Source of the DNA: Pseudolysobacter antarcticus
GTDB lineage: Bacteria; Pseudomonadota; Gammaproteobacteria; Xanthomonadales; Rhodanobacteraceae
Reading direction: 5' to 3'
Length of the DNA: 64,000 bases
Assembly: GCF_004168365.1 (NCBI RefSeq)
Contig: NZ_CP035704.1
Coordinates: 3,906,001-3,970,000, forward strand
Below, in pieces: positions 37,169 through 61,666 of this stretch. A program made the translations under genes and the position numbers. Position 1 is the first letter of the stretch. The number at the start of each line of letters is the position of its first letter. The notes under the pieces were generated by a model. The model was given only the letters and a program-made list of their open reading frames with translations, was not told the DNA's origin and did no database searches.

Positions 37169-37459
37169 ATGCTGAATACCTTGAGTGCCGCGGATTTCGA
37201 ATCGCTAGTCGGACAGAATCTTTCTTTCGAGTTTGCGGCAGGCGCGTACGAACTCGAACTTGTCGAGGTACGACCGATTCGTAATCCCTCGCCACGCGAG
37301 GCGCCGCCATTCGCACTGATATTGCGCGGCCCCCGAAATTCACCACTGCAGCAGGGTGTTTATCGCGTGCAGCACCCGGAGCGCGGTCCGCTCGATCTGT
37401 TCATGGTTGCACTCGGACCCGATGCGCACGGGCTCGTCTACGAGATTATTTTCAACTAG
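37169..37459 (+). CDS. DUF6916-type small protein, copy 1
   Basis: The 96-aa protein (MLNTLSAADFESLVGQNLSF) is homologous to the 96-aa product at 51026. Shared text includes FALILR, GVYRVQHP / GIYVYDHP, P-GPDAHG / PIGSDAHG and the ending YEI-FN. ATG 37163 would add two residues, but with 37169 both copies have identical length. It is convergent with the GNAT gene and overlaps its stop by 8 bp, as in copy 2. From memory, this family occurs next to phage-tail-collar genes; its function is unknown. There is no signal peptide. Confidence 0.75.
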   Translation: MLNTLSAADFESLVGQNLSFEFAAGAYELELVEVRPIRNPSPREAPPFALILRGPRNSPLQQGVYRVQHPERGPLDLFMVALGPDAHGLVYEIIFN

Positions 37460-37985: not shown

Positions 37986-38041
37986 GCTGGCGTGATCACG
38001 CTTGCGGCAAAGCGATGTGGCACATTCGGCGCACTTTTCGC

Positions 38042-38689
38042 TTAGACGATTTCCGTGATTCGGAATGCCAGGTAATCGAAATTGCGTGCCTGTCCGAAAC
38101 GCGCCTGCAGCGGCGCGCTTTTTTCGTCATTGTGATCGAACGCCCAAAGGTTGGCCCTGCTGCCGTCACGTTGTGGGCTGGCCAGAACATAACTGCCGGG
38201 CTGCAACAACGGCACGTCGAGCTGGGTCAAGGCGCAATGCGTTTGCCGATCCGCCTGCGCCGAGATATCAGCCTTCAGCGCATAGCTCAAAGCGAGACCA
38301 CGCATCGCTTCGCGGCCGGCCGAAAATCTGACCGCCCCGCTACTGCCATGTGGATTGTCCGCGCGGAAATCCCATGCGATGTAGGAGTTCTGTTTACCGT
38401 CAAGCGAATCAAATAGTGCGTGCACGCGCAAACTGGCGAGCGCGGGATCACCATCTGCCACATGGAAAGCATCCAGGCAAATCTCGACACGCGAAGCCAC
38501 GCACGACGTTGCGCCGCAGGCCTGGATCGAACGTAATGCGCCCTCGCCGTCCACGCGCGCCAGCGTAAACCCATCTTGTCGTTGGAGGGTTGCAACGAAA
38601 GGCGAGCCCAGCGTCGATGTCGCCACGCAGGCGAGCGGAAGTGCCGCCACCGACGAGCCAGTGATTGCAAGAAAGTTGCGCCTGCGCAT
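38042..38689 (-). CDS. Tat-type exported protein of unknown function linked to collar genes
   Basis: The 215-aa protein starts at 38689 with GGGGA upstream. Its N-terminus MRRRNFLAITGSSVAALPLA is a twin-arginine-like signal, suggesting export in folded form. The mature part (about 30-215) is beta-rich, with two cysteines close together (QACGATSC) and the text WDFRADNPHGSSGAVRFSAG. It follows collar gene c by 16 bp. In copy 2 the same position, at the same 16-bp distance, holds only a short reading frame. I do not recognise the family; it may be a helper for assembly of the collar proteins. Confidence 0.7.
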   Translation of the reverse strand: MRRRNFLAITGSSVAALPLACVATSTLGSPFVATLQRQDGFTLARVDGEGALRSIQACGATSCVASRVEICLDAFHVADGDPALASLRVHALFDSLDGKQNSYIAWDFRADNPHGSSGAVRFSAGREAMRGLALSYALKADISAQADRQTHCALTQLDVPLLQPGSYVLASPQRDGSRANLWAFDHNDEKSAPLQARFGQARNFDYLAFRITEIV

Positions 38690-38705
38690 AAAAATTCCCC
38701 GTGTA

Positions 38706-39224
38706 TTAGGTGCGTGGTGGATAAACGCCTTGTAGCGCGATACAGAAGTTCAGCGTGAGATAAGGCTGCATGTTGTTGTGCGGCTGATCGCCGCCGGCCG
38801 GCGCGATAACTGTGTCATACATTTGCGCCAGCCCCGTGTTGGCAGCCTGATAGAGATTTGCACCTACCGAGCGTCCAAACACTTCCGCAACCGCCTGCGG
38901 ATCTTCGCCCGGCTGCGTCGAAGCCATCAGCGGATGCGGGTGCGATGGCATCTCAGACTCAAGCAGCGTTACGGTTTCGCTGCCACCGGTTTCCCCAAGA
39001 TCATGCAGCGACAGCCCAGGGCCCTGGCCCGGATGCATGGGCGCGCTGCCCTGCATGTTCGGCAATGCAAAATTGGATTTCCCGTCTCCGCCATAGGTGG
39101 TTCCCAGCAACGAGAATAGTGCAGTGTTCTGGCTGAGGGGCATAATCTGCCCGTTGCAGAACGCCCAGCCCTTGGGTGCAAAATTGAATGGAAAAATGCG
39201 AATCTCGGCAACGAACGGATCCAT
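38706..39224 (-). CDS. Phage-tail-collar (MdpB-type) protein c, copy 1
   Basis: The 172-aa protein has the collar domain (about 5-60: IRIFPFNFAPKGWAFCNGQI, LFSLLGTTYGGDGKSNFALP) followed by a variable middle and a conserved end (NMQPYLTLNFCIALQG). The sub-type is set by GPGLSLHDLGETGGSETVTL, which matches the c protein of copy 2 (GPGLSPRVIGESGG). Collar proteins trimerise at tail-fibre bases in phages; the bacterial MdpB-like members are of unclear role. No signal peptide is present. Confidence 0.88.
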   Translation of the reverse strand: MDPFVAEIRIFPFNFAPKGWAFCNGQIMPLSQNTALFSLLGTTYGGDGKSNFALPNMQGSAPMHPGQGPGLSLHDLGETGGSETVTLLESEMPSHPHPLMASTQPGEDPQAVAEVFGRSVGANLYQAANTGLAQMYDTVIAPAGGDQPHNNMQPYLTLNFCIALQGVYPPRT

Positions 39225-39237
39225 GGAAGCCTTCCCC

Positions 39238-39741
39238 TTAGGTCTGAGACGGAAATATTCCGAAAAGCGAAATGATGAAATCTACACAAAGATAAGGCTG
39301 AAAGTTTTCATGGGGCTGGTTACCCCCTACAGAATTGATCGATTGGGCATTCATCGCCGAATTTGCGGTGGTAGCAATATAAGGCGTGTAATTTGGGGTC
39401 GTCGCCGGGATATTGTTGGCGACCGTCGTCGCCGACGCATCATCCGTACTAGCCAAGAACGCGTGGCGGTGCGACGGAATCTGGGCGACGCTCAGCGTGA
39501 TCGTCTCGGCGCCGCCAGTTTCGGCCAAAGTGAAGCCGTTGCCGAAATGCAAGGGCAGGCGTCCGCGCTGATCTGGTAACGCGAACGTGCTCTGGCCATC
39601 GCCGCCATAAGTGGTGCCGATCAAGTTGAACAAGGTTTCATATTCAGAAATCGGCAAAAGCTGCCCTTCACAAAACATCCAGCCGGCCGGTGCGAAATTC
39701 CCGGCGAACATGCGAATTTCGCCTACGTATGGTTGCGCCAT
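39238..39741 (-). CDS. Phage-tail-collar (MdpB-type) protein b, copy 1
   Basis: The 167-aa protein starts MAQPYVGEIRMFAGNFAPAG. It differs from the a and c proteins by the CEGQLLPISEYETLFNLIGT segment; the ISEYE or IAEYE text is shared with the b protein of copy 2. The fold is the collar domain followed by a variable histidine-containing part (AQIPSHRHAF) and a conserved hydrophobic end (PYLCVDFIISLFGIFPSQT). It lies 12 bp after gene a. Confidence 0.88.
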   Translation of the reverse strand: MAQPYVGEIRMFAGNFAPAGWMFCEGQLLPISEYETLFNLIGTTYGGDGQSTFALPDQRGRLPLHFGNGFTLAETGGAETITLSVAQIPSHRHAFLASTDDASATTVANNIPATTPNYTPYIATTANSAMNAQSINSVGGNQPHENFQPYLCVDFIISLFGIFPSQT

Positions 39742-39753
39742 CGTCTTGCTCCC

Positions 39754-40260
39754 CTAAGTTTGCGACGGAAAAATGCCTTGAAGGGCAATCGAGAAATTCA
39801 ATACCAGAAACGGCTGCATATTCAGGTGTGCCTGACTTCCACCGATGATGCCAATGGTCGACGGATCCATTGCGTCCAGAGCGGCTGGAGGCGTATAGGT
39901 CTGCGATAGGGGGCTGGCCAGGAAATTACCCGTCGGAATGGCGACGTTGGTGTTGTTCGACTGCGTAGAAGCCTGTGCAACATGTACATGCGTAGGCAGC
40001 TCGGAGATGGATAGCGTGTGCGCTTGTTCGCCACCCCGCTCGCCCAAAGTGTGTGCGTTGCCGAAATGAATCGGCGTACGGCTCTGCAGGTCTGGCAGGC
40101 CGAAATTGACGCGTCCGTCACCGCCGTATGTCGTACCGAGCAACGAGAACAACCCTTGATTTTGGTTGATCGGCAACAACTGACCATTGCACAACGCCCA
40201 GCCCTTCGGTGGAAAACCGAAGGACATAATGCGAATTTCCGACAAAAATGGCTCTGCCAT
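39754..40260 (-). CDS. Phage-tail-collar (MdpB-type) protein a, copy 1
   Basis: The 168-aa protein starts at 40260 with a strong AAGGAG, 24 bp after the giant gene. The collar text is FPPKGWALCNGQLLPINQNQ and LFSLLGTTYGGDGRVNFGLP; the INQNQ/VQQNQ text pairs it with the a protein of copy 2. The end is MQPFLVLNFSIALQGIFPSQ. It lacks a signal peptide, although the giant protein encoded before it is exported. Confidence 0.88.
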   Translation of the reverse strand: MAEPFLSEIRIMSFGFPPKGWALCNGQLLPINQNQGLFSLLGTTYGGDGRVNFGLPDLQSRTPIHFGNAHTLGERGGEQAHTLSISELPTHVHVAQASTQSNNTNVAIPTGNFLASPLSQTYTPPAALDAMDPSTIGIIGGSQAHLNMQPFLVLNFSIALQGIFPSQT

Positions 40261-40284
40261 ACCAAACTCCTTCTTCGATGAGTT

Positions 40285-43200
40285 CTACGGGGTAATGCCG
40301 CAACTGCCGGCAGCGACACCATTGATGGTTCCGGTGACCGTACCGTCACTGCTAACCGTAGCGGCCGCCGGATTCTGCGAAACCAGATAATTGTGAACGG
40401 TGGGTTCAATCTGGGCGCCGGACGTCAAACCTTCGAGATTGAAGGTCGAGGTATTTGCCCTGCGCAGCTGCAAACCATAAAAACCGGCACCACCCGAATT
40501 GGTCGTGTTGCCGCTGACCTTGCCGCAGATGGTGCTGTTGTTGCGCGCCTGCAGACGAATGGCATCGAGCGCGGTGCCGCCAGCGGCGACGCTGGAATTA
40601 TTTCCGGTGACGGCAATCTTCAACAGGCCACCCGGTCCCGACGAACCGGACGATTCGCCTTGAATCGGGTACGCGTTATCGATGGCGCTGATTGTATTGT
40701 TTGCGACGTTCGCGTTGATGGTACCGAAGCCGACGACCGACGTGCCGGAGTTGAACACGCGGATGCCGACCTGATTTCCGCCTACCCCGGTGCCGACGAG
40801 GACGTTGTTTTTCACGTCGCCCGTTGCCGTACCCGGGCCACTGCCGCTGAATACGTTGATCAGGGTGCTGATCATTCCGGAGACGTGGTTGCCGTCCACA
40901 TTGAAGGCCAGCGTCGAGGTCACCGCACGCGAAACCTGTATGCCCTGGTTACCCTGATTCGGTGCGCCGGGGGTGACGGTGTTGTTGAGGAATGTCGCAT
41001 TCAACGACGAGCCATCGCCCGAATCTGCCGACAACGCGATCGCGCGGTTGCCGGTCAATGTCGAGTTTTGCACCGTGCCGGTCAGGGAGCCTGTCGTATT
41101 CGTCTGCAGGAACACGCCGTTATTTCCGGATGCGGTGCTGTTGTCCTTGATGGTGCACGCATCGAAAGTGATGGTGCCGCTGGTGGCCGAATTGTGCACG
41201 CGGATATTGTCTTCGGTCGAGCCGCTTACCTCGGCTCTTGTCACCAACGCGCTCGCATCGAGCAGGTCATTGAGCAGAATGCCAGCCTGCTCCCCCGTTG
41301 CATTCGTATTGTTCTGGATCAGCAGATCATTGGCCTTGAAACCGGAAACCGACGTGCCCTTGATGCCGCTGTTGGCGTTATTTTTTATCCACATCGACGC
41401 TAGGTTGACTTTGGTGCTTGTGAGGGAGATGCCGTCACCGGTCGTCTTCTGAATCGTGCCGCCACTGCAGGCCGTCGTTCCTGTCTTGCACGTATTCGTC
41501 GTGCCATCGCCAATTACGGTCATCACGCCGGAACCGGTATTGTTGAGGATGATGCCGCTGGCCGGGCCGGAGGCCGCCGTGCCCGCCGTAATGCTCCTGA
41601 AATTAAGCCCTGCCGCGCCGATGGTGGTATTTGTCACGTTCAGTGCGGTTGCTGTGGTGGTCCTCAAGGAACTTCCGGTGACTGTCGCTGTGACCGTACC
41701 GCCGCCGGTGGCGGTAAAGGCGGGGTTGGCGCCCGTATTGGCAGCTATGACCCCACTGAAAGCAATCAAGGCACCCGTGTTATTGCTTAACGAGATGCCA
41801 CTGCCAGTTTCGTTGATCGAGCCTGACATCCCGATCGTGTCGCTGGTGCGATTGCTGACGACCACCGCGTTGCCGGAATTGTTGATGATCGGCTCGGCAA
41901 AGCTCACATTGCCGTTGCCGCCGTTGACAAGGAAAGCCGCTCCCGAGCCGCCGGCCGAATGGGCAATCTGGCCGATCGACGCCGAGAATGCCGTGCCGCC
42001 GACACCGCCAAAGGCGTTGACCAGGGATATGCCGGTTGTCGTCGAGTTGAGGCTGCTCACGAATGCAATGTTCGGCAAGACGATAGAGGCGTTGTTGACG
42101 TCTAGCGCTGGGCCACCGTTGGAATCAAGCCTGCCGACTCCCGAATTTTGCGATATACGGAAGCCTGTGCCCGCACCCGCATTCATTGCGCCGGTGCTGC
42201 TTACCAACAAACCAGTACCGGCATTGTTGTAGATGGTCAGGCTGGCGAAGGACAAATCGCCAAGGACGTTGCTCAGCGTCATGCCATTGACCGGCACACC
42301 GCTGGTGCTGTCACCAATACTGGTGGTGCCGCCGCTGACGGTCTGGAAGGAGCCGCCCGGGGTCGCATCGAACGTCATGCCACTGATCTGCACGCCCGTA
42401 CCGCCAGTGAAACGCGTGATGGTGTTGTCGTTGAACGCGGTGATGTAAGCCGTGCCCACAGTGCGGCTGATGTCGATACCGCGCACGCCGGCCGTGATCG
42501 TGTTGTTGGAGACCGCAATCTGCTCCGTGGTGCCGGTCGAGCCGAATGTGGCCTTGATGCCTTCAACGCTCGATCCGCTGATGGTGTTGCCATTGATTGT
42601 TACATCGACGTTGTTGGCACCGGTCGCGTTGATATTGACCGCATTCGGCACGCCCTGCAAATCGAGGCCGCGAATTTCGACCGCAGTCAAATTACCTGCG
42701 GTGGCAGGCACCGAAACTGCACTTGCCGCACTGGCGTTGATCTTCGGCTGCAACCCGGCCGCAACCAGCGTACCGAAGCCAGGAACGGACAGACCAAAAC
42801 CCTCGCCCCACATCCTCTGGCCACTCTTGAGCACGATGCCACCGCCGAGAGGAGTCGTGCCGGTATTGCCGCGGAAAACGAAGATGATGTCGCCCGCAGC
42901 GGATGCAGTCTGAGCTGCGGCCAGAGTCTCGAAGGCATTGGAAGATCTGCCATCGCTACCCGAGGCCGAATTATTGGCATCGACCAAGTCGCGCACATAC
43001 CAGACCATCTGGCTGACCGTCACGCTGACCGTGCCGCTGACGAGGCCAGGGGTCGGCGTCGCCGAATCGGTGACCTGGAACGGGAAGGTATCCGTGCCCG
43101 TAAAGCCGGCCTTGGGCACGTAGGTGAACGAGCCATTCGCGGCAATCGAATAGTTGCCGTTGTTGGTCGAGTTACCGGCTGCGACGACCACACTGGGTGC

Positions 43201-46200
43201 TGACGGGCCATCCGCATCGGTCGGCAACGACTTGGTCAGGATGCTGTTCGCATCAACGATGGAGACAACACCGGGCAGCGTCGCACCAGCGACATGCAAC
43301 TGAGTGTTGCCCGCGGTCGTGTAAGCAATCGTCGACGTGGTCAGAACCGGCGCGATGTTGGCGTGCGTGATCGTAACCACGAAGGTCTGACTGGCCGAGG
43401 TATCGACGCCGCCGTTGGCGGTGCCTCCGTTGTCATGAATCTGCACGGTAACGTTCGCGGTCTTGCTGCCAGCCGTCGCTTGCACCGCAGGGGTGAAGGT
43501 CAACACGCCGCTGGCGGAGATTGCGGGTTGCGCGGCAAACGCGCCGTTGTTGTCGTTGCTCACGATGAAGTTCACGGCCTGACCAGACTCATTCGGCGGA
43601 CCGGCCGAGATCGCCGTCGCCCAGCCATTCACCGTTTGCGCACCGACATTATCGAGCAAGTTCTGGTCAGCGCCCTTGGTGAAGCTCGGCACATCATTGA
43701 CCGGCGTGACGTTGATGACAAAGGTTTGCGCCGCTGACGTATCGACGCCACCGTTGGCAGTGCCGCCGCTGTCCTTGATGACCAGCGTGATGGTGGCCGT
43801 ACCGTTGGCGTTTGCCGCCGGGGTATAGGTCAACACGCCGGCGGGTGAAATCGTCGGGGCAACACTGAACAGCGCCGCGTTGGTGTTGTTGGTCAGGGTG
43901 AAGCTGAGAGTCTGAGTGGACTCATCCGCGGGGCCAGCCGAAATTGCTGTGGCCCATGGATTGACGGTCTGCGCACCGGAATCCTCAAGCACAGTCTGGT
44001 CGGCGCCCTTGGTGAAGCTCGGCACATCGTTCACCGCGGTGACGTTGATCGCGAACGTCTGCGCCGCCGAGGTATCGACACCGCCATTGGCTGTGCCACC
44101 GTTGTCGTGCAACTGCACTGTGACCGTCGCAGTGCCGTTCGCATTCGCCGCTAGTGTGTATGTGAGCGTGCCGTTGGCGGCGATGCTCGGCTGTACCGCG
44201 AACAAGGCATTATTGTTATTGCTGACGATAAAGTTCAGCGTCTGGATGCTGCCATCGTTGTCGTTGAGCGCAGTCGCCCAGCCCACAACGTTCTGTGCCA
44301 CAGCATCTTCAAGCACCGTCTGATCGGCGCCTTTGGTAAAGCTCGGCGCGTGGTTCACGAGGGCGACGTTGATATTGAACGTTTGTACTGCCGACGTATC
44401 GACGCCACCGTTAGCCGTACCGCCGGTGTCATGGATTTGCACACTGACAATCGCCGTGCCGAATTTGCTTGGCGCAAGCGTGTAGCTCAATGTCCCATTC
44501 GCGGCGATAGTGGGTTGTGTGCTGAACAACGCATTATTGTTGTTCGAAACGATGAAGTTCAGCGTCTGCGCGGCTTCATCGGCAGGCCCAGCGGAAAGTG
44601 CCGTGGCCCAGCCGGCAGTCGTATGCGCACCGGTGTCTTCGAGCACGCTTTCGTCGGCGCCTTTGGTGAAGCTCGGAACATCGTTGACCGGCGTAACGTT
44701 GATATTGAACGTTTGCACGGCCGAGGTATCAACGCCGCTATTGGCGGTGCCGCCATTGTCATGCAACTGCACCGACACGATGCTCGTCCCGTTCGCACTC
44801 GGCGCGAGCGTATAGGTCAGCGTGCCGGTTGCTGTCACTGCAGGCTGTACCGCAAACAACGTGTTGTTGTCGTTAGTCACGATGAAATTCAAGGCCTGAC
44901 CAGACTCGTTCGTCGGACCAGCAGAAATCGCTGTGGCCCAGTTGACGATACTTTGCGGCGCTGCATCTTCAAGCACCGTCTGGTCAACGCCCTTGGTGAA
45001 GCTCGGTGCCTGGTTGACGGCACTAACCGTGATGACAAAAGTTTGCGCAACCGAAGTATCCACGCCGCCGTTAGCCGTGCCGCCGTTGTCCTGCGCGACG
45101 ACCGAGATGGTGGCAGTTCCTGCGGTATTGGTCGCCGGGGTGAAGGTCAGCACGCCCGCTGCCGAAACGGCCGGGGCGACCGAGAACAAAGCCGCGTTGG
45201 TATTGCCGGTTACATTGAAGCTGACCGTCTGGGCAGATTCATCAGCCGGGCCCGGTGAGATTGCCGTGGCCCAACCGCTGACGGTCTTGAGGCCCGAATT
45301 CTCCAGCACGGTCTGATCGGCACCCTTGGTGAAGCTCGGCGGATCGTTCACTGCAGTGATATTGATCACGAAGGTTTGCGCTGCGCTGGTATCAACACCG
45401 CCGTTGGCAGTGCCGCCATCGTCCTTGAGCACCAGCGTGATCGTCGCCGAGCCGTTGGCATTGGCTGCCGAGGTGTATGTCAGTACACCGGTCGAGGAAA
45501 CTGCCGGGGCTGCGCTGAACAAGGCTGCATTGGTATTGCCAGTCACCTGGAAGGTGAGAACTTGTCCGCCGCCATCACCATCGCTGATTGCCGTAGCCCA
45601 GCCATTGATCGTTTTTGCGCCCGCATCTTCCAGCGAGGTTTGATCCACACCCTTGGTAAAGGCTGGCGCGCTATTGATCGAGATAATCGCGACCGTGCTT
45701 GTGACCGCAACGCTGTTGGCGCTGCCGTCGTTGACGGTCCAACTGATCGTGCGCGTAGCTGCGGTCGGATTCTGCGAGGTATTGTTGTAGGTCACGCTGG
45801 CGAGCGCGAGCTGATAATTCGCGACCGTGGTACTGCCGCTCAAGCTAAGTACGCCCGTGCCGGCATTGAAGCTGCCGGTAATGCCGTTGGCGTTGACGAA
45901 ACCGAGCACGTCCTGCGCACTGTTGAAATTGGCACTGATCGCAACTGTTGCGCTGGTCAGGTTGGTGTTGTCGACATCGCTCACCGTGATGCCGGCATCC
46001 AGCACCAGCGGCGGATTGGCTTCGGTGTAGGTGACTGCTGCGCCCGCAACTACAACCGGCGGATCATTTACCGGCGTGACGGTGATGGTGCTGGTCACGG
46101 CCGCACTTGCGGCGGCGCCGTCGCTGACGAGCCAAGTCACGATGCGCGACGCAGCCGCTGGATTTTCCGAGGTATTGCTGTAGCTAACGCTGCGCAAGGC

Positions 46201-49047: not shown

Positions 49048-49099
49048 GTTCCCCATATCCCTAGTTATGACTCCCGGACCCCACATCCGGTAGAACCCG

Positions 49100-51833: not shown

Positions 51834-52105
51834 AACTGTCTCACTCGGCTAAACATTGCGGACTTCGAACACAGCGCAGGCAAAGCCAGCCGTGGCGTTG
51901 GGGCGATGCTCGACCGCTTGGCCAGACTGCAATCATCATCGCGCAGATAGGCCAAACGCACTTTCAGCGCGCCGCTGTCGTAATCGCAAGCGCGGCCCAC
52001 GTCCCGCCCAAACGCCAGCCCGAGAGCGGCGCCGGACGAGCCCAGGAAATTGCGTCCGACGAAGAAAGGACGGCAACCGAGATTGCCGTCAAACGGGGCT
52101 TTCAT
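51830..52105 (-). CDS. Short, possibly decayed reading frame at the Tat-protein position of copy 2
   Basis: An ATG at 52105 with GAGGA upstream lies 16 bp after collar gene c, the same distance as the intact 215-aa Tat-protein gene in copy 1. The frame codes for 91 aa and holds VGRNFLGSSGAALGLAFG, which looks like a damaged twin-arginine signal. It ends on GTGA, overlapping the GNAT start. In another frame the end reads AGFACAVFEVRNV and stops at 51849, resembling the end of a collar-linked exported protein. It may be a shortened, frameshifted remnant or a genuine small protein. Confidence 0.35.
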   Translation of the reverse strand: MKAPFDGNLGCRPFFVGRNFLGSSGAALGLAFGRDVGRACDYDSGALKVRLAYLRDDDCSLAKRSSIAPTPRLALPALCSKSAMFSRVRQL

Positions 52106-52121
52106 GCGCTGGCGGTCCTCG

Positions 52122-52652
52122 CTAGTTACGCTGCGGAAACACGCCCTGCAGGGCAATGATGAAAGTGATCGGCAAACTCGGCATGACGTTGTTATGCGGC
52201 AGCGAGCCGCCCTGCATCGGCAGTGGCGCCAGCGCTACCGTCGGCGGGGTCGTAGCATACGGCGCATATGCGTTGCCGTTCCCGCTCTTGGTAAATGCCG
52301 CACCCGTTACAGGCGCGCTCACCCCGACCGCCGCACGCGGACTGATACTGTTCATTACATGGTTGTGCTGTGGCATCTGGTTTTGCAGCAACGTTACGCC
52401 CGCCGAACCACCGGATTCGCCAATTACCCTCGGGCTCAGTCCCGGGCCGGCTCCGGTTCCGATCGGTATGCTTCCCTGCAGATTGGGCAAGCCAAAGTTG
52501 CTGGTGCCGTTGCCGCCGAAGCTGACACCGATCAGGGAAAAAAGCGCGCTGTACTGTTGAATCGGCAAGAGGGCGCCATCACAAAAGGCGTTCCTGCTCG
52601 GCGCGAAACTGCCGGCAAACATTCTGATTTCAGCGAGAAATGGTGAAGTCAT
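52122..52652 (-). CDS. Phage-tail-collar (MdpB-type) protein c, copy 2
   Basis: The 176-aa protein has collar text IRMFAGSFAPSRNAFCDGAL and LFSLIGVSFGGNGTSNFGLP. GPGLSPRVIGESGGSAGVTL assigns it to sub-type c. It has lost the usual GW in the collar motif (SRNAF in place of xGWxF) and has SFGG in place of TYGG, so it is the most divergent of the six. It ends FIIALQGVFPQRN. Confidence 0.87.
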   Translation of the reverse strand: MTSPFLAEIRMFAGSFAPSRNAFCDGALLPIQQYSALFSLIGVSFGGNGTSNFGLPNLQGSIPIGTGAGPGLSPRVIGESGGSAGVTLLQNQMPQHNHVMNSISPRAAVGVSAPVTGAAFTKSGNGNAYAPYATTPPTVALAPLPMQGGSLPHNNVMPSLPITFIIALQGVFPQRN

Positions 52653-52665
52653 GACGGTCGTATCC

Positions 52666-53193
52666 TCAATTGCGAGTCGGGAAAACGCCAGCCCAGGCGA
52701 TCATGAATGTGATGGCAAGGTACGGCTGCATGTTGTCGTGCGGCAGGTTGCCGCCGCTGAACGAGATCGAATTTGGATCCATTGCCAATGCAGGCACCAC
52801 CGGCACGTCGACGTCATACATCTGCACTGCCGACGGCGTGGCGGGGATATTGCCGGCCGGACTCGCTGTGGTCGCGACAGCGGTATTCACCACAAAAGCG
52901 TGTGTATGCGCAGGCATTTGGGCCGACAGCAGTGTTACGTTTTCGGTGCCGGCGAGCTGACCCTGGACATACTGCTTGCCCGATCGTGCCCCACCCATGT
53001 GCAGCGGAGCACGGCCACGCAGATCGGGCACCGCGAAAGTCTGGACTCCATCACCGCCGTAGGTAGTGCCAATCAAGACGTACAACACTTCGTATTCAGC
53101 GATCGACACCAAGCGTCCATCACACGGGAAATAGCCGACCGGTACGAAATTACCACCGAACATGCGGATTTGACCAACAAAACAGGTACTCAT
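52666..53193 (-). CDS. Phage-tail-collar (MdpB-type) protein b, copy 2
   Basis: The 175-aa protein starts MSTCFVGQIRMFGGNFVPVG. Sub-type b is shown by VSIAEYEVLYVLIGTTYGGD. It carries RGRAPLHMGG and the histidine-rich AQMPAHTHAF common to b proteins. It ends FMIAWAGVFPTRN. It lies 13 bp before gene c. Confidence 0.87.
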   Translation of the reverse strand: MSTCFVGQIRMFGGNFVPVGYFPCDGRLVSIAEYEVLYVLIGTTYGGDGVQTFAVPDLRGRAPLHMGGARSGKQYVQGQLAGTENVTLLSAQMPAHTHAFVVNTAVATTASPAGNIPATPSAVQMYDVDVPVVPALAMDPNSISFSGGNLPHDNMQPYLAITFMIAWAGVFPTRN

Positions 53194-53207
53194 GACGGGA
53201 TTCGCTC

Positions 53208-53720
53208 CTAGTTACGCGAAGGGAAAGCGCCCTGCAGCGCGATGCAGGCGTTAAGTACGAGATAAGGTTGCTGGTTCGAATGTGGCTGATTGCCACCGGC
53301 CATGCCCACGGTCTGCGCCGCCATTGGAACCAGGCCAGCGCCACCCGCAGCGGAGTACATGGTCGCGTTAGTCGCCGCGGCTGCGAGCACGTTGCCCGCT
53401 GGCGAAAGTTGTCCGCCCGCAGTCGGCACGGTATTGACCAGATGGTTGTGCGCCGGCAGTTCCGTCAGTGCCAGTGTGTGATTTTCCTCACCGACAAATG
53501 CACCGATCGGGTTGGCATTATTGCGGTGCATCGGCGCGCAGCCTTGCAGGTTCGGCAACTGGAAATTGTTGACGCCATTGCCGCCATAAGTTGTACCGAT
53601 CAACGAAAAGAGTGCCTGATTCTGCTGGACTGGCAACAACTGACCGTTGCACAGCGCCCAGCCACGCGGCGCGAAATTAAAGCCGAATAAGCGGATCTCG
53701 GCCACGTAAGGTTGGGACAT
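53208..53720 (-). CDS. Phage-tail-collar (MdpB-type) protein a, copy 2
   Basis: The 170-aa protein starts MSQPYVAEIRLFGFNFAPRG. Sub-type a is shown by WALCNGQLLPVQQNQALFSL. It ends PYLVLNACIALQGAFPSRN. It lies 53 bp after the end of giant 2 and has no signal peptide. Confidence 0.88.
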   Translation of the reverse strand: MSQPYVAEIRLFGFNFAPRGWALCNGQLLPVQQNQALFSLIGTTYGGNGVNNFQLPNLQGCAPMHRNNANPIGAFVGEENHTLALTELPAHNHLVNTVPTAGGQLSPAGNVLAAAATNATMYSAAGGAGLVPMAAQTVGMAGGNQPHSNQQPYLVLNACIALQGAFPSRN

Positions 53721-53773
53721 CGTTTCTCTCCTCTTCTATCGCAAGTGGGATGGTCCAGGGAACAACATCGTAC

Positions 53774-56700
53774 TCAGGGTGCAATGGGGCAGGTTCCGTT
53801 GGTGAAGCCAGTGGTGGTGCCGTGGAGGCTCTCGGCAATTGAACCGCCGCCCGGTCCGCTCAGCGTGTTTTGACCATTCAGGAAGTTCTGCACCGCCGTG
53901 TAGTCGGTTCCGGCACCGGTATAGCCCTGCAGCTGGAAGGTGCTGTTGGCGCCCGCAGGACTGTCTTCGAGACTGATGCCAACGGCTGGAAGTGAGGTGC
54001 CTGCAGCAGCCAGAGTATTACTGGTGGCGTTGAGACAAACGAATGCCTGCGCCAGATTCGCAACCACCGACATTGCATCGGATCCATTCGTGAAGGTCGG
54101 CATGTGGACGACATTGTTGGTCGCGGTGATATTGAGTTTGCTCAGCGCCGCTGTACCTGTTTTAGTCACAAAATAAATACCGTTATCCTGCGTGATCTGT
54201 TCGATATGATTGCTGTCGACTTGCACCGTAACCGTGCCGGTGCCGTCGTTTAGCAGGTACAGGCCTCTACCGGAGGGCGAACCGGAACCGACTACCGCCG
54301 CGGTACCGATCGTATTGCTGTTGACATGCCCGGTGAAGCTACCGCTGCCTTGGAAGTCCAGGTGTATGACATCGGCGCCTGTGCCGTTCATCGTATTGTC
54401 GTGGATGTTGAACGTGCCATTGCTGGTGCTGGTGGTCGACGTTTTTGCGTTGATGCCGTTTACGGCGAAATTGCTGAAAGTCGAGTTCGCCACGGTCAAA
54501 GCAAGCGCGTCGGTAGCTAGCACACCAATCACATTGCCGGCGCTGCTGCTCAACGCCATGTAATTGAAACTGGTCGCCACTGTCGTATTGGTCACCGAGA
54601 TTGCCGCGCCCGAGATAGTGATGCCCGAGATCGTCCCGCCTGATCCTGCCGAGCCGCTACCGGTCACGGTGAATGAACCCGCGGACAGATTGTTGAGCAA
54701 TATCCCGTTGGCGGCGCCACTGGCTGAAACACTGAGGAAATTCAGCGTACCGGCGATGTTGGTCAGGCTAACCGCAACGGCGTTCGCCGTCGTCACAGTG
54801 ACGCTGTTCTGCACCACCGCCCCGGTCGTGGTGCCGGTGTTGGTGAAGCCGGTCGCACCACTGGTGTTGATATCGAGCGAACTCACGGTGACGTTGTTGC
54901 CTGCCAGCGTGACGGTACCAGTCAGCTTCGGTTTGCTGGTTGCTGACGTATTGAGGATCGCCACCCCCGCAATCGCCGGCAGACTGGTGCCTTGGCCCCA
55001 CAACGTGCTGCTGGCCTTGAGCGAGATCGCACCCGGCGTGGTAGTTGCCGTACCGGCGCTCTTGACGAAGATCGTGTCGCCCGCCAAGTGTGTGCTACTC
55101 GCGCTGACCAGCGTGTTGAACGGCGTGGCCGCGGCACCGTTCCCGTTGGTACCGGCGCTGCCATCCACATACCAAACCTTGCCCGCGAGCGTGATTGTCA
55201 CTGTAGCCGGCGCGCTAGTCACACCATTGCCGTCAGTCACGATGTAGGTAAAGGTATCGGTGGTCCCGGTGACGCCGATCGGCGGCGTATAGGTGAAGTT
55301 GCCATTCGCAGCCAGCGTAACGCTACCGATGCCGCTGGTGGCGGACGTGCCCGCGGTCGTCGTCAGCGTGCCAGGGCCGCTATCATTTGAGAATAGGCTC
55401 GTGGCGTTGGTGACGTACGGCGTGGTCAGCGTATTGCCCACTGCCAGCGGCGTATTGCCTACCGTGGTGTAGCTGTTATTGCCTGCAATTGGGGCCACCT
55501 TGAAGCCGGTCAGCGCCTTGCTGCCCGGACACGTGTTCGCGTCGCTAATCCCGATCGTGACGTTGGCCGCGGCAACCGTCGTGGTTGGCGTGCCGCTGAC
55601 CACGCCGGTAGCGGCGTTGATGCTCAAGCCTGCCGGCAAGCCAGTCGCACTCCATGTGATCGGCAACGTGCCGCCGGTCTGGGTGAAAGCTGGATTGCTG
55701 TAAGCGGTCTGGTACAAGCCATTCGCCAACGCACCGCTGATCGTGATCGTGACGCAAGGCGACAACACCACCAGCGTGAATGATTGCGTCGCTGGTGAAC
55801 CGACGCCGTTGGTCGCCGAGATCGTGATCGGATAACTACCCGCCGTGCCTGCTGCCGGCGTGCCGCTGAGCAGCCCCGCGGTGGAAAGCGTGACGCCAGA
55901 CGGCAACGCGCCGGTCTCGCTGAAGCTCGAGCCTGGATAACCGCTGGCGACGACGGTGAACGTACCGGCGCTGCCGATCGTGAAATTGGTCGAGTTAGCG
56001 CTGGTGATCGCCGGTGCCTGGTTGATGATCAGGGTGAAGGTTTGCGTCGCATTCGGCGTAACACCGTTGGCCGCCGTCAGCGTGATCGCATACGAGCCGC
56101 CCATGCCCGCCGCTGGTATGCCAGCGAGGACACCGGTAGCCGGGTTCAAAGTCACGCCCGAGGGCAGCGTACCGGTTTCGCTGAAGGTGGACGCTGGCGT
56201 GCCGCTCGCGGTTACCGTGAAGCTACCCGCAGTACCGACTGTGAACGTGGTGGTGTTGATGCTCGTGATTGCGGGCGCCTGCTTGACGGTCAGGGTGAAG
56301 GTCTGGGTTGCGTTCGGGGTGACGCCGTTGTTGGCCGTGAACGTCAAGGCGTAAACGCCTCCCGAGGCCACTGCCGGCGTGCCCGCAAGTACGCCCGTGG
56401 CCGGCGTGAACGTCACGCCGCCCGGCAAGGTGCCGGTGACGCTAAGTGTCGGCACCGGTACGCCGTTCGCGGTGACCGTAAACGTGCCAGCCGTGCCAAC
56501 CGTGAACGTCGTGTTGTTGGCGCTGGTGATGGCCGGTGCCTGCTGAACGGTCAAGGTGAAGGTTTGCGCCGCGTTCGGGGTCACGCCGTTGTTGGCGGTG
56601 AACGTCAGCGAATACGTGCCACCGGTACCCGCAGCCGGTGTGCCGGCGAGTACGCCTGTAGCAGCCGTGAAGGTCACGCCGCTCGGCAAGGTACCGCTGA

Positions 56701-59700
56701 TGCTCAGTGTCGGCGCCGGCACACCACTCGCCGTAACCGTGAACGTGCCCGCCGCGCCGACCGTGAACGTGGTCGTGTTGACACTGGTGATCGCTGGGGC
56801 CTGATTCACGACCAGCGTAAACGTCTGCGTCGCCGGGCTGCCGACCGAATTGGTCGCGCTGAGGTTCAGCGTGTAGTTTGCTGCCGTACCTGCCGCCGGA
56901 ATACCAGCCAGTGTCGCCGTTCCATTGCCGTTGTCGACGAGCGTCACACCACTCGGCAAACTGCCGGTTTCGCTCGTGACCGCATTCGGGTAACCGGTCG
57001 TGTTGATCGTGAAGCTACCCGCCGTACCGACCACGAAGGTGGTGGTATTGGCGCTGATGATCGCAGGTGCCTGATCGACGATCAGGGTGAAGGTTTGCGT
57101 CGCATTCGGGGTAACGCCGTTAGCCGCGGTCAGCGTGATCGAATACGAACCGCCCGTAGTGGCCGCAGGCGTGCCAGCGAGAACGCCGGTGCTCGTATTC
57201 AACGTCACGCCCGAGGGCAACGCACCGGTTTCGCTGAAGGTCGATGCCGGCGTGCCGCTGGCGGTTACGGTGAAGCTGCCCGCAGTACCGACGGTGAAGG
57301 TGGTTGTGTTGGCGCTGGTGATCGCAGGTGCCTGCTTGATCACGAGCGTGAAGCTCTGCGTCGCTGCACTGCCGACACCGTTGTTGGCGCTGATCGTGAT
57401 CGGATAACTGCCACCGGTGCCGCCAGCTGGTGTGCCTGCCAGGGTCGCGCTACCGTTGCCATTGTCGGTCAGGATGACACCGCCCGGCAGAGTACCGGTT
57501 TCGGTAATTGCAGCACTCGGATTACCGGTCGTGGTGACAGCGAACGTGCCTGCCGTGCCGACCGTAAACGTGGTTGTCGCCACGCTCGTGATCGCCGGCG
57601 CCTGATTGACGGTCAAGGTGAAGTTCTGAGTGGCGGGACTACCTACGCCATTCGTTGCCGTGAATGTGATCGGATACGAACCGCCCGTGCCCGCCGCTGG
57701 CGTACCGCTCAAGATTCCCGTGGCCGCAACGAACGTCACGCCGCTCGGCAGCGTGCCGCTCTCGCTCAAAGTCGGCGCCGGTGCACCCGAGCCGGTAACG
57801 GTAAAGTTGCCTGCTGTGCCTACCGTAAATGTGGTGTTGTTCGCACTGGTGATCGCGGCACCTTGGGTGATGACCAAGGTAAAGTTCTGCGTCGCCGGAC
57901 TGCCTACGCCATTGCTTGCCGTCAACGTGAGCGGATAACTGCCGGACGTACCCGCGGCCGGTGTACCCGACAAGGTCGCGGTACCGCCGCCGCCCGGTGT
58001 GAAGATCACACCGCTCGGCAAGGCGCCCGATTCACTGATCGTTGCGTTCGGCGTGCCGGTGCTGGTGATGCTGAAACTGCCAACCGAGCCGATGTTGAAG
58101 GTGGTCGTGTTAGCGCTAGTGATTGCTGGCGCGGCATTCACCGATAACGTGAATGCCTGTGTCGCCGGACTGCCCACACCATTGGTCGCCGTGAATATGA
58201 TTGGATACGAGCCAGCCGTACCTGCCGCTGGAGTGCCGCTCAGCACACCTGTTGCAGCGACGAAAGTCACACCTGTTGGCAGCACGCCGGTCTGGCTCAA
58301 GGTCGGGCTGGGTGTACCTGTTGCGCTGACGGTGAAACTTCCGGACGCTCCCACCACAAATGCCGTGGCACTGCCGCTCGTGATGGTCGGCGCCTGATTA
58401 ACGACTAGGGTAAAATTCTGTGTTGCCGCGCTGCCGATGCCGTTGTTCGCGGTGATTGCCAACGGATAACTGCCGCCCGCGGCCGCGGCCGGCGTGCCGG
58501 ACAAGGTCGCCGTGCCATTGCCGTTGTCGGTCAGGGTCACGCCACTCGGCAACGCACCGGTCTTGCTGATCGCCGGGTTCGGATTGCCGGTCGCGTTGAC
58601 AATAAACGTGCCTGCCGTGCCGACCGTGAACGTGGTCGTCGCCAAGCTGGTGATCGCGGGGGCTTGGTCGATGGTCAGCGTAAAGTTCTGCGTCGCCGGA
58701 CTGCCCACGCCGTTTGTCGCCGTGAATGTGATCGGATACGAGCCACCTGTGCCCGCTGCCGGTGTGCCGCTCAATATTCCGGTGGCCGCAACAAAAGTCA
58801 CGCCGCTCGGCAAAGCACCGCTTTCGCTAAGCGTTGGTGCAGGGGCGCCAGCGCCGGTAACGGTGAAGGTACCCGCTGTGCCTACCGTAAAGGTTGTGCT
58901 GCTCGGACTCGTGATTGCCGCGCCTTGGGTTACGACCAGCGTGAAGTTCTGCGTCGCCGGACTGCCGATGCTGTTGGTTGCCGTTAACGTGAGCGGATAA
59001 CTGCCAGATGTGCCTGCCGCTGGCGTGCCCGACAAGGTCGCCGTGCCACCGCCGCCGGGCGTGAAGATCACGCCGCTAGGCAAGGTGCCCGACTCGCCGA
59101 GCGTTGCATTCGGTGTACCCGTACTGGTGATGTTGAAGCTGCTCACCGAGCCGACGTTAAACGTGGTCGTGTTGGCGCTGGTGATTGCTGGCGCCTCATT
59201 GACCTGCAAGGTAAATGTCTGCGTTGCCGGAACGCCGATACCATTGGTTGCCGTGAACGTGATCGGGTAGCTACCAGCCGTGCCGATCGCTGGAATGCCT
59301 GCAAGAATCCCGGTGCCTGGCGCGAAGGTTACACCCGTTGGCAACGCGCCGCTTTCGCTCAAGGTTGGCGATGGTACGCCGCTGGCCGTTACGGTAAAAC
59401 TTCCACTGGCGCCGACGACAAATGCCGTTGCGTTGGCGCTGGTGATTGTCGGTGCCTGATCGACGGCCAGGGTAAAGTTCTGCGTTGCCGCGGTGCCGAT
59501 GCCGTTGCTGGCGTTTATCGTGATCGGGTAACTGCCACCCGTGCCCGCTGCTGGCGTACCGGACAATGTAGCTGTGCCATTACCGCCGTCTACCAAGGTC
59601 ACACCGCTCGGCAATACACCGGTTTCGCTGATTGCCGCATTCGGGTTACCGGTCGTGGTGATACTGAATGTGCCGGCGCTGCCAACTGTAAATGTGGTCG

Positions 59701-61666
59701 TCGCCGCGCTGATGATTGCCGGCGCCTGATCAACGATCAGCGTGAAATTCTGCGTGGCAGGACTGCCGATGCCATTCGTGGCAGTGAATGTGATCGGATA
59801 CGAACCGCCCGTGCTCGCTGCCGGTGTGCCACTGAGTACGCCAGTAGCCGCGGTGAAGGTCACACCACTCGGCAGCGCGCCGCTTTCGCTCAGCGTCGGC
59901 GTCGGTGCGCCAGAACCGGTGACGGTGAAAGTGCCGGCGGTGCCTACGGTGAAGGTGGTAGTGATCGCGCTGGTAATCGCCGGGCCTTCAGTGATTATCA
60001 ACGTGAAGTTTTGCGTCGCCGGACTGCTGATGCCATTCGTCGCTGTCAATGTCAGCGGATAACTACCGGACGTACCCGTCGCAGGTGTGCCCGACAAGGT
60101 TGCTGTCCCGCCGCTGCCGGGCGTGAAGATCACACCGCTAGGCAACGTGCCTGATTCACCGATCGTTGCGTTCGGTGTGCCGGTGCTAGTGATGCTGAAA
60201 CTGCTCACCGAACCGACGTTGAAGGTGGTCGTGTTCGTGCTTGTGATCAATGGCGCCTCGTTCACCTGCACGGTTACGATGCCGTCCGAGGTGCCCTGAC
60301 TGTTGCCGATGCGATACAGGAACGTATAGCTGCCAGCCGTGGTTGGCGCGCCGAGGACAAAACTGCCGTCGGCGTTCAAGGTCAGCGCCGCACCGCCGAG
60401 TGTGCCGCTCGCGGCTACGCCGGGTGTATTGTCCGTAACCGAACCACCGAGACTGCCGCCACCGTAGGAACTCATCGTGGCAGGTGGCGCACCGAGCTGA
60501 TCATTATTCAGCACGCCGGGCGCGCTGATACTCAGGCCCGTGCCGACGCTAGTCGTATAACTGTCGGCGACAGCAACCGGACCGGCAACCACAGTGAACG
60601 TGACGGTCGCCGTGGAAGTACCGCCGGAATTGGTCAACGTATAGGTGAAACTGTCGCTGCCCGTATAACCAGTGGTCGGCGTATAAGCAAAGCTGCCGTC
60701 GGCGTTCAGTGTCAGCGCACCGTGCGTGGGCGCAGTGTGTGCGCTGATCGTTGCGCTATTTACCGTATCGTTGCTCAACACGCCCGGCGCAGCGATATTA
60801 AGCGTGACTCCCGATGATGCAGTATAGCTGTCGTCGACCGTGATCGGCGGACTCAGCGCGTTGACGTTCGCCACGTCGATGCGGAAAAAGATATTACCGG
60901 CTTGGGTTGCTGCAAAAAATGCGCGCAAATCGATCGCGGCCTGGCCGCTCGTGGAATCGCCGGCTGGATCGCTGGCAATCGGCGAATAACCGATCCAATC
61001 ACCGACCTGACCGTCGCTGACAAAGGTGCCGGCCCATGCGATGCCACAGATCAACATGAGCATGGCGGCGAAACGGCGCATGCGCCGACGTGCCGCGCGA
61101 GTACCGATAAAAACAACAAGACCGACCAGCAATAGCAACGCCGGAATACCGAATGTCGGAATCGGCTGCGCCGGTGCGCTCGGCTGGATGGCGCCGGGTG
61201 TGAACAGAATCGGCGGACCATTGAGCGCGCCGTTCGTGCTTAGCAAAACATCATCACCGATATCGCTCGTACCCACGACATACAGTCGCATGGCACCAGT
61301 ATTGCCGCCTTGCACCGCTGCCAGCGTGTCGTTCAATTCGACCACCGACGCGCCAGCGACACCGTTACCCAATCCGACCGGATAACCGCCGCCAATGACC
61401 GTGCCCGCACCGAACGTACCGCCGGAGCAGGTTTCTCGTGTGACCGTGGTTACGCTCGGCGAAGCGCCCGCATTGACGGTCGCCTGCAGATGGACTTCAG
61501 CGCCGCTGATGGTTCCATCGGGAAAGACAACATTGCAGCCGGTACTGGCGCTGTTGTCCGAGTCGATGTAGACACTGTAGTTATAGGTTTGCGCAGCAGC
61601 CGGCACGAACGCCGTCAGCACAAACAACGAAGCCGCAAGCAGCGACTCGATAATTCGCTTATTCAT
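53774..61666 (-). CDS. Giant exported Ig-repeat and beta-helix protein, copy 2
   Basis: The 2,630-aa paralogue of the product at 40285 starts at 61666 (GGGAG upstream). Order: signal peptide (1-25, ending PAAA); N-module with SVYIDSDNSASTGCNVV, close to copy 1 (SIYVDTDDSAGTGCSVV); IPTL-CTERM-like QPIPTFGIPALLLLVGLVV and RRRMRR (167-197); second signal-like helix (AAMLMLICGIAWA); CBM9-like module (FVSDGQVGDWIGYSPIASDP); cadherin-like units to about 470; 17 He_PIG-type Ig repeats of about 85-90 aa; and a beta-helix from about residue 2,160 (KVWYVDGSAGTNGNGAAATP). It ends TNGTCPIAP. The two ends match copy 1, while the repeat region is of a different family. No outer-membrane barrel is present. 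Confidence 0.85.
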   Translation of the reverse strand: MNKRIIESLLAASLFVLTAFVPAAAQTYNYSVYIDSDNSASTGCNVVFPDGTISGAEVHLQATVNAGASPSVTTVTRETCSGGTFGAGTVIGGGYPVGLGNGVAGASVVELNDTLAAVQGGNTGAMRLYVVGTSDIGDDVLLSTNGALNGPPILFTPGAIQPSAPAQPIPTFGIPALLLLVGLVVFIGTRAARRRMRRFAAMLMLICGIAWAGTFVSDGQVGDWIGYSPIASDPAGDSTSGQAAIDLRAFFAATQAGNIFFRIDVANVNALSPPITVDDSYTASSGVTLNIAAPGVLSNDTVNSATISAHTAPTHGALTLNADGSFAYTPTTGYTGSDSFTYTLTNSGGTSTATVTFTVVAGPVAVADSYTTSVGTGLSISAPGVLNNDQLGAPPATMSSYGGGSLGGSVTDNTPGVAASGTLGGAALTLNADGSFVLGAPTTAGSYTFLYRIGNSQGTSDGIVTVQVNEAPLITSTNTTTFNVGSVSSFSITSTGTPNATIGESGTLPSGVIFTPGSGGTATLSGTPATGTSGSYPLTLTATNGISSPATQNFTLIITEGPAITSAITTTFTVGTAGTFTVTGSGAPTPTLSESGALPSGVTFTAATGVLSGTPAASTGGSYPITFTATNGIGSPATQNFTLIVDQAPAIISAATTTFTVGSAGTFSITTTGNPNAAISETGVLPSGVTLVDGGNGTATLSGTPAAGTGGSYPITINASNGIGTAATQNFTLAVDQAPTITSANATAFVVGASGSFTVTASGVPSPTLSESGALPTGVTFAPGTGILAGIPAIGTAGSYPITFTATNGIGVPATQTFTLQVNEAPAITSANTTTFNVGSVSSFNITSTGTPNATLGESGTLPSGVIFTPGGGGTATLSGTPAAGTSGSYPLTLTATNSIGSPATQNFTLVVTQGAAITSPSSTTFTVGTAGTFTVTGAGAPAPTLSESGALPSGVTFVAATGILSGTPAAGTGGSYPITFTATNGVGSPATQNFTLTIDQAPAITSLATTTFTVGTAGTFIVNATGNPNPAISKTGALPSGVTLTDNGNGTATLSGTPAAAAGGSYPLAITANNGIGSAATQNFTLVVNQAPTITSGSATAFVVGASGSFTVSATGTPSPTLSQTGVLPTGVTFVAATGVLSGTPAAGTAGSYPIIFTATNGVGSPATQAFTLSVNAAPAITSANTTTFNIGSVGSFSITSTGTPNATISESGALPSGVIFTPGGGGTATLSGTPAAGTSGSYPLTLTASNGVGSPATQNFTLVITQGAAITSANNTTFTVGTAGNFTVTGSGAPAPTLSESGTLPSGVTFVAATGILSGTPAAGTGGSYPITFTATNGVGSPATQNFTLTVNQAPAITSVATTTFTVGTAGTFAVTTTGNPSAAITETGTLPGGVILTDNGNGSATLAGTPAGGTGGSYPITISANNGVGSAATQSFTLVIKQAPAITSANTTTFTVGTAGSFTVTASGTPASTFSETGALPSGVTLNTSTGVLAGTPAATTGGSYSITLTAANGVTPNATQTFTLIVDQAPAIISANTTTFVVGTAGSFTINTTGYPNAVTSETGSLPSGVTLVDNGNGTATLAGIPAAGTAANYTLNLSATNSVGSPATQTFTLVVNQAPAITSVNTTTFTVGAAGTFTVTASGVPAPTLSISGTLPSGVTFTAATGVLAGTPAAGTGGTYSLTFTANNGVTPNAAQTFTLTVQQAPAITSANNTTFTVGTAGTFTVTANGVPVPTLSVTGTLPGGVTFTPATGVLAGTPAVASGGVYALTFTANNGVTPNATQTFTLTVKQAPAITSINTTTFTVGTAGSFTVTASGTPASTFSETGTLPSGVTLNPATGVLAGIPAAGMGGSYAITLTAANGVTPNATQTFTLIINQAPAITSANSTNFTIGSAGTFTVVASGYPGSSFSETGALPSGVTLSTAGLLSGTPAAGTAGSYPITISATNGVGSPATQSFTLVVLSPCVTITISGALANGLYQTAYSNPAFTQTGGTLPITWSATGLPAGLSINAATGVVSGTPTTTVAAANVTIGISDANTCPGSKALTGFKVAPIAGNNSYTTVGNTPLAVGNTLTTPYVTNATSLFSNDSGPGTLTTTAGTSATSGIGSVTLAANGNFTYTPPIGVTGTTDTFTYIVTDGNGVTSAPATVTITLAGKVWYVDGSAGTNGNGAAATPFNTLVSASSTHLAGDTIFVKSAGTATTTPGAISLKASSTLWGQGTSLPAIAGVAILNTSATSKPKLTGTVTLAGNNVTVSSLDINTSGATGFTNTGTTTGAVVQNSVTVTTANAVAVSLTNIAGTLNFLSVSASGAANGILLNNLSAGSFTVTGSGSAGSGGTISGITISGAAISVTNTTVATSFNYMALSSSAGNVIGVLATDALALTVANSTFSNFAVNGINAKTSTTSTSNGTFNIHDNTMNGTGADVIHLDFQGSGSFTGHVNSNTIGTAAVVGSGSPSGRGLYLLNDGTGTVTVQVDSNHIEQITQDNGIYFVTKTGTAALSKLNITATNNVVHMPTFTNGSDAMSVVANLAQAFVCLNATSNTLAAAGTSLPAVGISLEDSPAGANSTFQLQGYTGAGTDYTAVQNFLNGQNTLSGPGGGSIAESLHGTTTGFTNGTCPIAP
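55760..60290 (-). repeat. Seventeen He_PIG-type repeats with a 1,062-bp higher-order period
   Basis: Each unit of about 265 bp reads APAITSxNTTTFTVGTAGTF, then a G-P-SG section, then GTPAAGTGGSYPITFTATNG. Equivalent sites at 60207, 59145 and 58083 are exactly 1,062 bp apart, so blocks of four units were copied together. Confidence 0.8.

Follow-up and report, generated by a model that had tools for sequence, protein, structure and literature searches.

The window analyzed here, a stretch of 64,000 nucleotides from the 4.73 Mb, two-contig genome of Pseudolysobacter antarcticus, carries side by side two copies of a gene set built around three small proteins of the phage tail collar family (PF07484) and one giant protein. 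On the minus strand, copy 1 reads giant 1 (53774..61666; 2630 aa), collars a1 (53208..53720), b1 (52666..53193) and c1 (52122..52652), a short frame without Pfam match (51830..52105) and GNAT acetyltransferase 1 (PF00583; 51309..51833), followed by the convergent, plus-strand DUF6916 gene 1 (PF21880; 51005..51316). Copy 2 has the same order on the same strand: giant 2 (40285..49086; 2933 aa), collars a2 (39754..40260), b2 (39238..39741) and c2 (38706..39224), a 215-aa protein without Pfam match that starts with a twin-arginine translocation (Tat) signal, MRRRNFL... (38042..38689), and GNAT 2 (PF00583; 37452..37985), again followed by a convergent plus-strand gene, DUF6916 gene 2 (PF21880; 37163..37459). 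The gaps giant–a, a–b and b–c were 53, 14 and 13 bp in copy 1 and 24, 12 and 13 bp in copy 2. The Tat-type gene starts 16 bp past c2, and the first ATG of the short frame in copy 1 lies likewise 16 bp past c1; this frame, occupying the place of the Tat gene, is plausibly its decayed remnant. A gene for a 593-aa hydroxylase separates the two copies, and the whole locus is flanked by metF/ahcY and modA/modB. The genes named by a first-pass annotation of the letters were all present on the strands it gave, with the order, the gaps and the 16-bp spacing after c2 and c1 as claimed, and its two convergent 96-aa genes both proved to be PF21880 members counting 96 aa from internal ATGs (the one of copy 2 at 37169).

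The family assignments are strong. All six collars, 167–176 aa long, matched PF07484 with E 4e-22 or better (78–100 bits against a gathering score of 24), both GNATs scored over the Pfam cut-off, and the DUF6916 genes matched PF21880 with E 5e-27 and 3e-19 (94 and 70 bits against a gathering score of 27). Since the Pfam match starts at residue 7 or 8 in each of the six collars, they have no N-terminal shaft or attachment region, whereas the phage members compared (NoodlelyBoi gp40 and the PHROG profiles) have additional sequence N-terminal to the collar. Among solved structures, a profile built from 37 collars matched 8kec, a chain of a phage long tail fibre (E 5e-11), and T4 gp12 (E 9e-5).

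The gene set is conserved across phyla, with three specialised collar paralogues. PF07484 was found in 23 of the 41 genomes searched (the own genome and 40 relatives), mostly as three matches in a row. A genome-collection scan with b2 gave 261 relatives; the best 80, which were kept for their similarity to b2 and therefore give no measure of frequency, all had three consecutive collar matches (a few cut by contig ends) at 68–81% identity to b2. Together with 20 loci from the relatives and minus two duplicates, they formed a compared set of 98 loci, of which 96 had exactly three tandem collar genes. A GNAT lay within 6 kb in 88 of these 96 triplet loci, a DUF6916-profile match (short or Tat-type) was present in 82, a giant-like open reading frame (ORF) in 91 and all together in 77, whereby the 91 is an upper figure because the giant test was looser in the real loci than in the controls (edge fragments and some antisense frames). 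The eight triplet loci without GNAT include several cut by contig ends; L050 and L088 have more than 9 kb on both sides. As controls served 20 stretches of ~20 kb at arbitrary positions, 18 from collar-bearing genomes and 2 from collar-free relatives: at E 1e-4, there was no match to the profiles of collar, GNAT, DUF6916 and beta-helix in any of them, and four had a giant-like ORF. Given this recurrence and the blank controls, the gene set is not a chance association. The complete set occurs under seven phylum labels (Acidobacteriota, Actinomycetota, Bacteroidota, Chloroflexota, Pseudomonadota, Thermomicrobiota and Verrucomicrobiota; six when the first letters T and C of this list, Thermomicrobiota and Chloroflexota, are taken as one), many of them from metagenome-assembled genomes (MAGs) and possibly mis-binned. 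Plasmid records contributed a Paenibacillus locus with three collars, GNAT and giant, and a Deinococcus locus with three collars and GNAT. The first-pass annotation had named a lack of the order giant, collars, GNAT, DUF6916 outside this genome as a refutation of its idea. The set is kept elsewhere, but its order varies: the giant-like ORF closest to the triplet was upstream and of the same strand at 52 loci, downstream at 25 and upstream in divergent orientation at 14, and single-collar versions exist.

A census of 200 evenly drawn Pseudomonadota genomes, the own genome included, found PF07484 in 56 and DUF6916 in 31. The 123 collar hits formed 64 arrays, of which 28 had three members, 33 a single one and 3 two; none was larger. 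Most DUF6916 hits (33 of 36) lay within 10 kb of a collar; 21 of the 28 triplets, 2 of the 3 pairs and 8 of the 33 single collars had a DUF6916 within this distance. Arrays of three were present in 24 of the 200 genomes, one of which, G169, has a different architecture: its "triplet" (L140:8568-10760) consists of several collar segments within one 730-aa ORF.

Each of the three collar positions has its own consensus sequence. When 294 collars from 98 triplets, those of the window among them, were placed on a FastTree tree, their position labels changed 8 times against a shuffled mean of 139, in support of the heterotrimer-like set of three subtypes proposed earlier, with a, b and c of both window copies being of the position 1, 2 and 3 subtypes, respectively; the position-3 rows of L009, L011 and L012 fell outside their main group. 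The motif PxHxH was present in 287 of the 294 collars and the C-terminal HxNxxP in 292, and the C-terminal parts vary strongly. The collar domain and both motifs are shared with T4 gp12/gp37-type tips and with the "microcystin-dependent protein" MdpB of COG4675; HxH metal pairs occur in T4 tail-fibre tips. No recognisable signal peptide was seen in the N-termini of the domain-trimmed rows, only 2 of the 294 having a strongly hydrophobic N-terminal window. In one genome (G129), the three collar hits of each of two arrays lie in two ORFs: in the first array, a single 559-aa ORF contains two collars and a GNAT, and DUF6916 is hit weakly at a distance of 4.4 kb; the second array (L138) has a 426-aa collar-collar ORF. 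The third collar gene lies beside in both. A sequencing error is possible, but the fusion was seen at two loci. Single collars keep the same company: of five such loci fetched for their nearby DUF6916 (L144–L148), four (L144–L147) had a GNAT together with a giant-like ORF, the lengths ranging from 2030 to at least 3069 aa. Single-collar loci are interpreted as the homotrimeric version of this device. The two-collar locus L141 had all partners. That the three collars act together is well supported.

The nearest biochemical precedent is viral. The three consecutive PF07484 proteins of the virophage DSLV2 co-purify as a 1:1:1 heterotrimer, give one complex on native gels, form fibres of ~16 nm and bind Synechococcus lipopolysaccharide, with clades that are position-specific (PMC12724248). 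Each subunit counts about 200 aa there, compared to 167–176 aa in the window. Three consecutive collar genes, each PF07484 and each in a position-specific clade, are common to both, and a 1:1:1 heterotrimer may be so as well. In DSLV2, the proteins sit on the virion and their genes beside a minor capsid gene (PMC12724248), whereas here the genes are cellular and stand with a giant, a GNAT, DUF6916 and often a Tat protein.

That the giant is a surface protein is well supported, in line with the first-pass annotation. Both window giants begin with a signal peptide (judged by eye); giant 1 has 18 He_PIG stretches and Big_9 repeats, both of Ig-like kind, and giant 2 tandem-95/Big_9 repeats. Their C-terminal parts are beta-helix-like, starting VWYV at 55166-55177 in giant 1 and at 42994-43005 in giant 2. 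A single beta-helix domain common to all giants was considered and dropped, the profile having hit in only 59 of the 96 loci. A Pfam scan of five other giants found mutually unrelated surface anchors: the L023 giant has an autotransporter domain at its C-terminus (PF03797, E 5e-50), the L061 giant and that of Paenibacillus (L109) have three S-layer homology (SLH) stretches each, and the L070 giant has a Por secretion tail. The fifth, of L106, has DUF4214. The C-termini of the other group II giants, partly cut, resemble L023 by eye. The anchoring mode thus appears to differ by lineage. Large Ig-repeat bacterial adhesins are likewise giant repeat proteins with autotransporter, SLH, type IX secretion or exosortase anchors; however, none was found described, among the literature matches listed, with a collar triplet, a GNAT and DUF6916.

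For giants of the window type, an exosortase-related anchoring may apply. Their N-terminus comprises a signal peptide and a first domain; next come a hydrophobic segment of IPTL-like sequence, a cluster of Arg residues and another hydrophobic segment with A-x-A at its end. In giant 1 the IPTL-like and second hydrophobic segments span 61031..61168 on the minus strand (residues 167-212) and matched NF033207 and TIGR04174 weakly, both below cut-off; the equivalent hydrophobic hairpin of giant 2 (48439..48570, minus strand, residues 173-216) had no NCBIfam match. The NF033207 midcut-by-XrtH model was matched by six of seven N-termini (giant 1, L010, L029, L042, L072 and L073) with 16–31 bits. In the L073 giant (L073:3183-3962), a clear IPTLSEWG-type exosortase signal stands in the middle of the protein, not at its C-terminus, over the TIGR04174 cut-off (21.0 against 20.5). 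Exosortase H (XrtH) itself is encoded in the window genome (TIGR04177, E 1e-55, at G000:C2:3770081-3770551). It was present in all nine genomes with a same-strand giant (G000, G001, G009, G015, G026, G027, G032, G033 and G038) and in none of the nine with a divergent giant (G003, G008, G010, G012, G013, G016, G017, G019 and G021). Since the two groups of genomes also differ in ancestry, this is a correlation only.

Tat-signal genes are enriched beside the triplets. A strict Tat-type ORF pattern was counted within 3.5 kb of the triplets (617 kb) and, as background, in the 847 kb farther off in the same loci: it gave 48 ORFs in 46 of the 96 loci near the triplets against 15 in 13 loci farther away, and a looser pattern 63 in 55 against 41 in 34. 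The strict pattern also appeared in three of the 20 control loci, all three spurious by eye. After exclusion by hand, 42 of the 96 loci had a Tat-signal ORF near the triplet. Of these 42 proteins, 16 matched the DUF6916 profile at E 4e-6 or better, two of them (L031 and L048) passing the Pfam cut-off, while 11 formed, with the Tat protein of the window, a second family that did not match DUF6916 by sequence. TatC is present in the genome. The pattern suggests that the signal-less trimer could be exported folded by hitchhiking on its Tat-signal partner. The ternary PaoABC complex, an aldehyde oxidoreductase, is such a Tat hitchhiker (PMC4273604); by analogy, one Tat-signal subunit could carry its signal-less partners out here, a possibility that the genomic pattern fits in the 42 loci. 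Seven Rhizobiales loci (L053, L077, L089, L093, L094, L100 and L103) have a gene of 412-504 aa between collar c and GNAT, and its L053 product showed weak FG-GAP and tectonin (beta-propeller-like) matches below cut-off.

The short DUF6916 proteins of the window, like its GNATs, begin without signal peptide. The product of DUF6916 gene 2 was modeled by AlphaFold2 as a confident small beta fold (predicted local distance difference test, pLDDT, 91.3). Its best solved matches were the N-terminal domains of MrkH (Z 8.7, 84 residues, root-mean-square deviation 2.5) and YcgR (Z 7.8), and no viral fold matched it with an E-value of 0.001 or lower. The MrkH match covers the PilZN part only and lies near background; no claim was therefore made of the fold as a clue to cyclic di-GMP.

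The best reading of the locus, to which we give a probability of about 0.5, is a bacterial cell-surface adhesion or recognition device in which a collar heterotrimer forms a knob on or near a giant stalk. The giant would be the Sec-exported stalk, with its Ig-like repeats and beta-helix-like segment, held at the surface in a lineage-dependent manner, here perhaps after processing at the internal exosortase-H-type signal, as the sub-cut-off family matches and the presence of XrtH hint. The collars would correspond to shaftless phage tail tips, each contributing its own fixed subunit to a single heterotrimer pinned by metal; the position-specific subtypes, the arrays of one or three, the fusion ORFs and the virophage precedent point to such a joint knob. 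This knob may dock on or near the giant and bind a target such as a surface glycan. Since no signal peptide is recognisable in the collars and they would fold before leaving the cell, export in the folded state by Tat hitchhiking is put forward tentatively for loci that encode an adjacent Tat-signal partner. The signal-less DUF6916 would then assist assembly in the cytoplasm, and the GNAT would modify one of the locus proteins. A fuller version, a widespread non-viral display system whose phage-type heterotrimeric knob is assembled and metal-loaded in the cytoplasm with DUF6916, exported folded on a Tat-signal DUF6916 relative, and mounted on giants with anchors swapped by lineage while the unchanged knob cassette moved between phyla, is rather speculative. 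The gene set itself is established, and its function is deduced.

Several observations weigh against the stalk-and-knob device. The strict Tat gene is absent in 54 of the 96 loci, including all nine of group II, so that hitchhiking cannot be universal. The model of the window Tat protein is weak (pLDDT 69.7, best fold match Z 5.2), and the MrkH match of DUF6916 is close to the noise level, the first unrelated row standing at Z 6.3. On the side of the giant, all NF033207 matches are under the curated cut-off of 45 (giant 1 at 29.9) and giant 2 has none; XrtH is also found in collar-free genomes, in G034, where no giant was found, and in G028 with its two collars, and its association with giant type may follow phylogeny. 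The 80 loci were picked for similarity to b2, and the triplet rule has exceptions as well: L018 has two collars and L019 one, positions 1 and 2 are exchanged in the tree for L049, L070 and L083, neither G129 fusion locus has a giant-like ORF by the test applied, and L138 has neither GNAT nor DUF6916 hit. Finally, the single-collar locus L148 lacks a giant-like ORF and hits GNAT weakly, and the two-collar locus L142 has none of the partners.

Among the rival explanations, the collars might instead form three separate homotrimeric knobs with different targets, a receptor-binding repertoire on the same giant. The strong variation of the collar C-terminal parts would suit such a repertoire, and the single-collar loci with the same partners (4 of the 5 fetched) indicate that a homotrimer can work here. 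However, a repertoire would vary in number, while three collars are present in 96 of 98 loci and pairs are rare (3 of 64 arrays); the collar order is fixed in nearly all loci, two collars share one chain in G129, and DSLV2 offers an actual heterotrimer (PMC12724248). We regard separate homotrimers as doubtful. Still less probable is a device of which the collars never leave the cytoplasm, serving the giant as, for example, a chaperone or export pilot with the GNAT and DUF6916 as parts of the same factor. The nearly complete lack of hydrophobic N-termini among the collars, the signal-less GNAT and short DUF6916 and the absence of Tat genes from group II loci speak for such a role, but PF07484 knobs are receptor-binding tips in phages, the collar profile having found 8kec and T4 gp12, and a Tat-signal DUF6916 relative adjoins many triplets.

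A phage, tailocin or contractile injection system that was domesticated or is decaying, with its fibres left over, is very improbable, even with a collar fold of the phage tail-fibre kind. The phage sheath family PF04984 found nothing in the whole genome (the genome-wide search did not extend to other families of tail and capsid), the flanks are housekeeping genes, and the gene set is kept across phyla. None of 50,697 phage records matched DUF6916 of copy 2 at an E-value of 1e-5, no PHROG did, and gp41 and gp42 of the phage NoodlelyBoi, neighbours of its collar, did not match DUF6916 either. The 485 phage records that matched b2 were all less than 60% identical to it (42% for the best-ranked), against 68–81% in the cellular loci, and the PHROG matches to the collar lay mostly inside longer profiles (137-1150 positions). 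On the sheath, the flanks, the missing phage DUF6916 and the low collar identity, an origin from a phage, tailocin or injection system was rejected. The first-pass annotation had likewise seen no phage replication, capsid or lysis genes, and there is no sign of a phage around the conserved gene set.

Bdellovibrio trimeric tail-fibre-like adhesins are phage-fibre-like trimers used by a cell; they are long single-gene fibres, unlike the three-gene knob with fixed partners proposed here. The gene set fits no described system in the literature covered, while its individual domains have known relatives: no paper naming DUF6916 and none describing the set was among the matches listed, with subscription papers and preprints outside the scope. 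Many collars annotated as tail fibre proteins, as they are in the plasmid records, belong to this conserved cellular gene set, and some so-called prophage remnants are predicted to be surface devices. Two orphan families, the MdpB-like collars and DUF6916, gain testable partners, and a naturally heterotrimeric knob would offer three faces able to differ. Across at least six or seven phyla, cells may have here an apparently undescribed way to stick to or recognise something.

The two copies of the window are present side by side, as the first-pass annotation had them, but as divergent neighbours rather than a fresh duplication. Collars of the same position were 47-51% identical between copies, the GNATs 44% and the DUF6916 proteins 43%. 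The copy-2 collars were 81-87% identical to collars in two proteobacterial MAG loci, one labelled Burkholderiales; in the tree they group with other proteobacterial MAG loci, and b1 groups with group II. A recent tandem duplication is unsupported, since the copy-2 collars and b1 group elsewhere, and sisterhood of the copies was neither supported nor rejected (approximately unbiased test, p 0.25, 0.26 and 0.18). The congener, a Pseudolysobacter MAG listed in the same genus (G001; record L045), keeps the order c, Tat, GNAT, DUF6916, with a Tat protein 58% identical and Tat-type at its N-terminus, and the junction of giant 2, hydroxylase, DUF6916 gene 1 and GNAT 1. There, the GNAT 1 counterpart is 83% identical over the 54 aa present at the contig end and the DUF6916 gene 1 product 76%.

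The Asp/Asn-hydroxylase gene between the copies (49211-50992) encodes a C-terminal Asp/Asn beta-hydroxylase domain (PF05118) and, by eye, a sulfotransferase-like P-loop in its N-terminal part. Though conserved at the junction in the congener, it is treated as a bystander because only L018 of the 20 relatives' loci has a match. On an Aminobacter plasmid, a SapC family gene directly follows the cluster (L111:13561-14358). Near the locus, the window also encodes a large, probably exported 1512-aa subtilase (PF00082; 25360-29898) with Big_9, He_PIG and P-domain repeats, adjoined by a probably exported 1008-aa protein (31305-34331).

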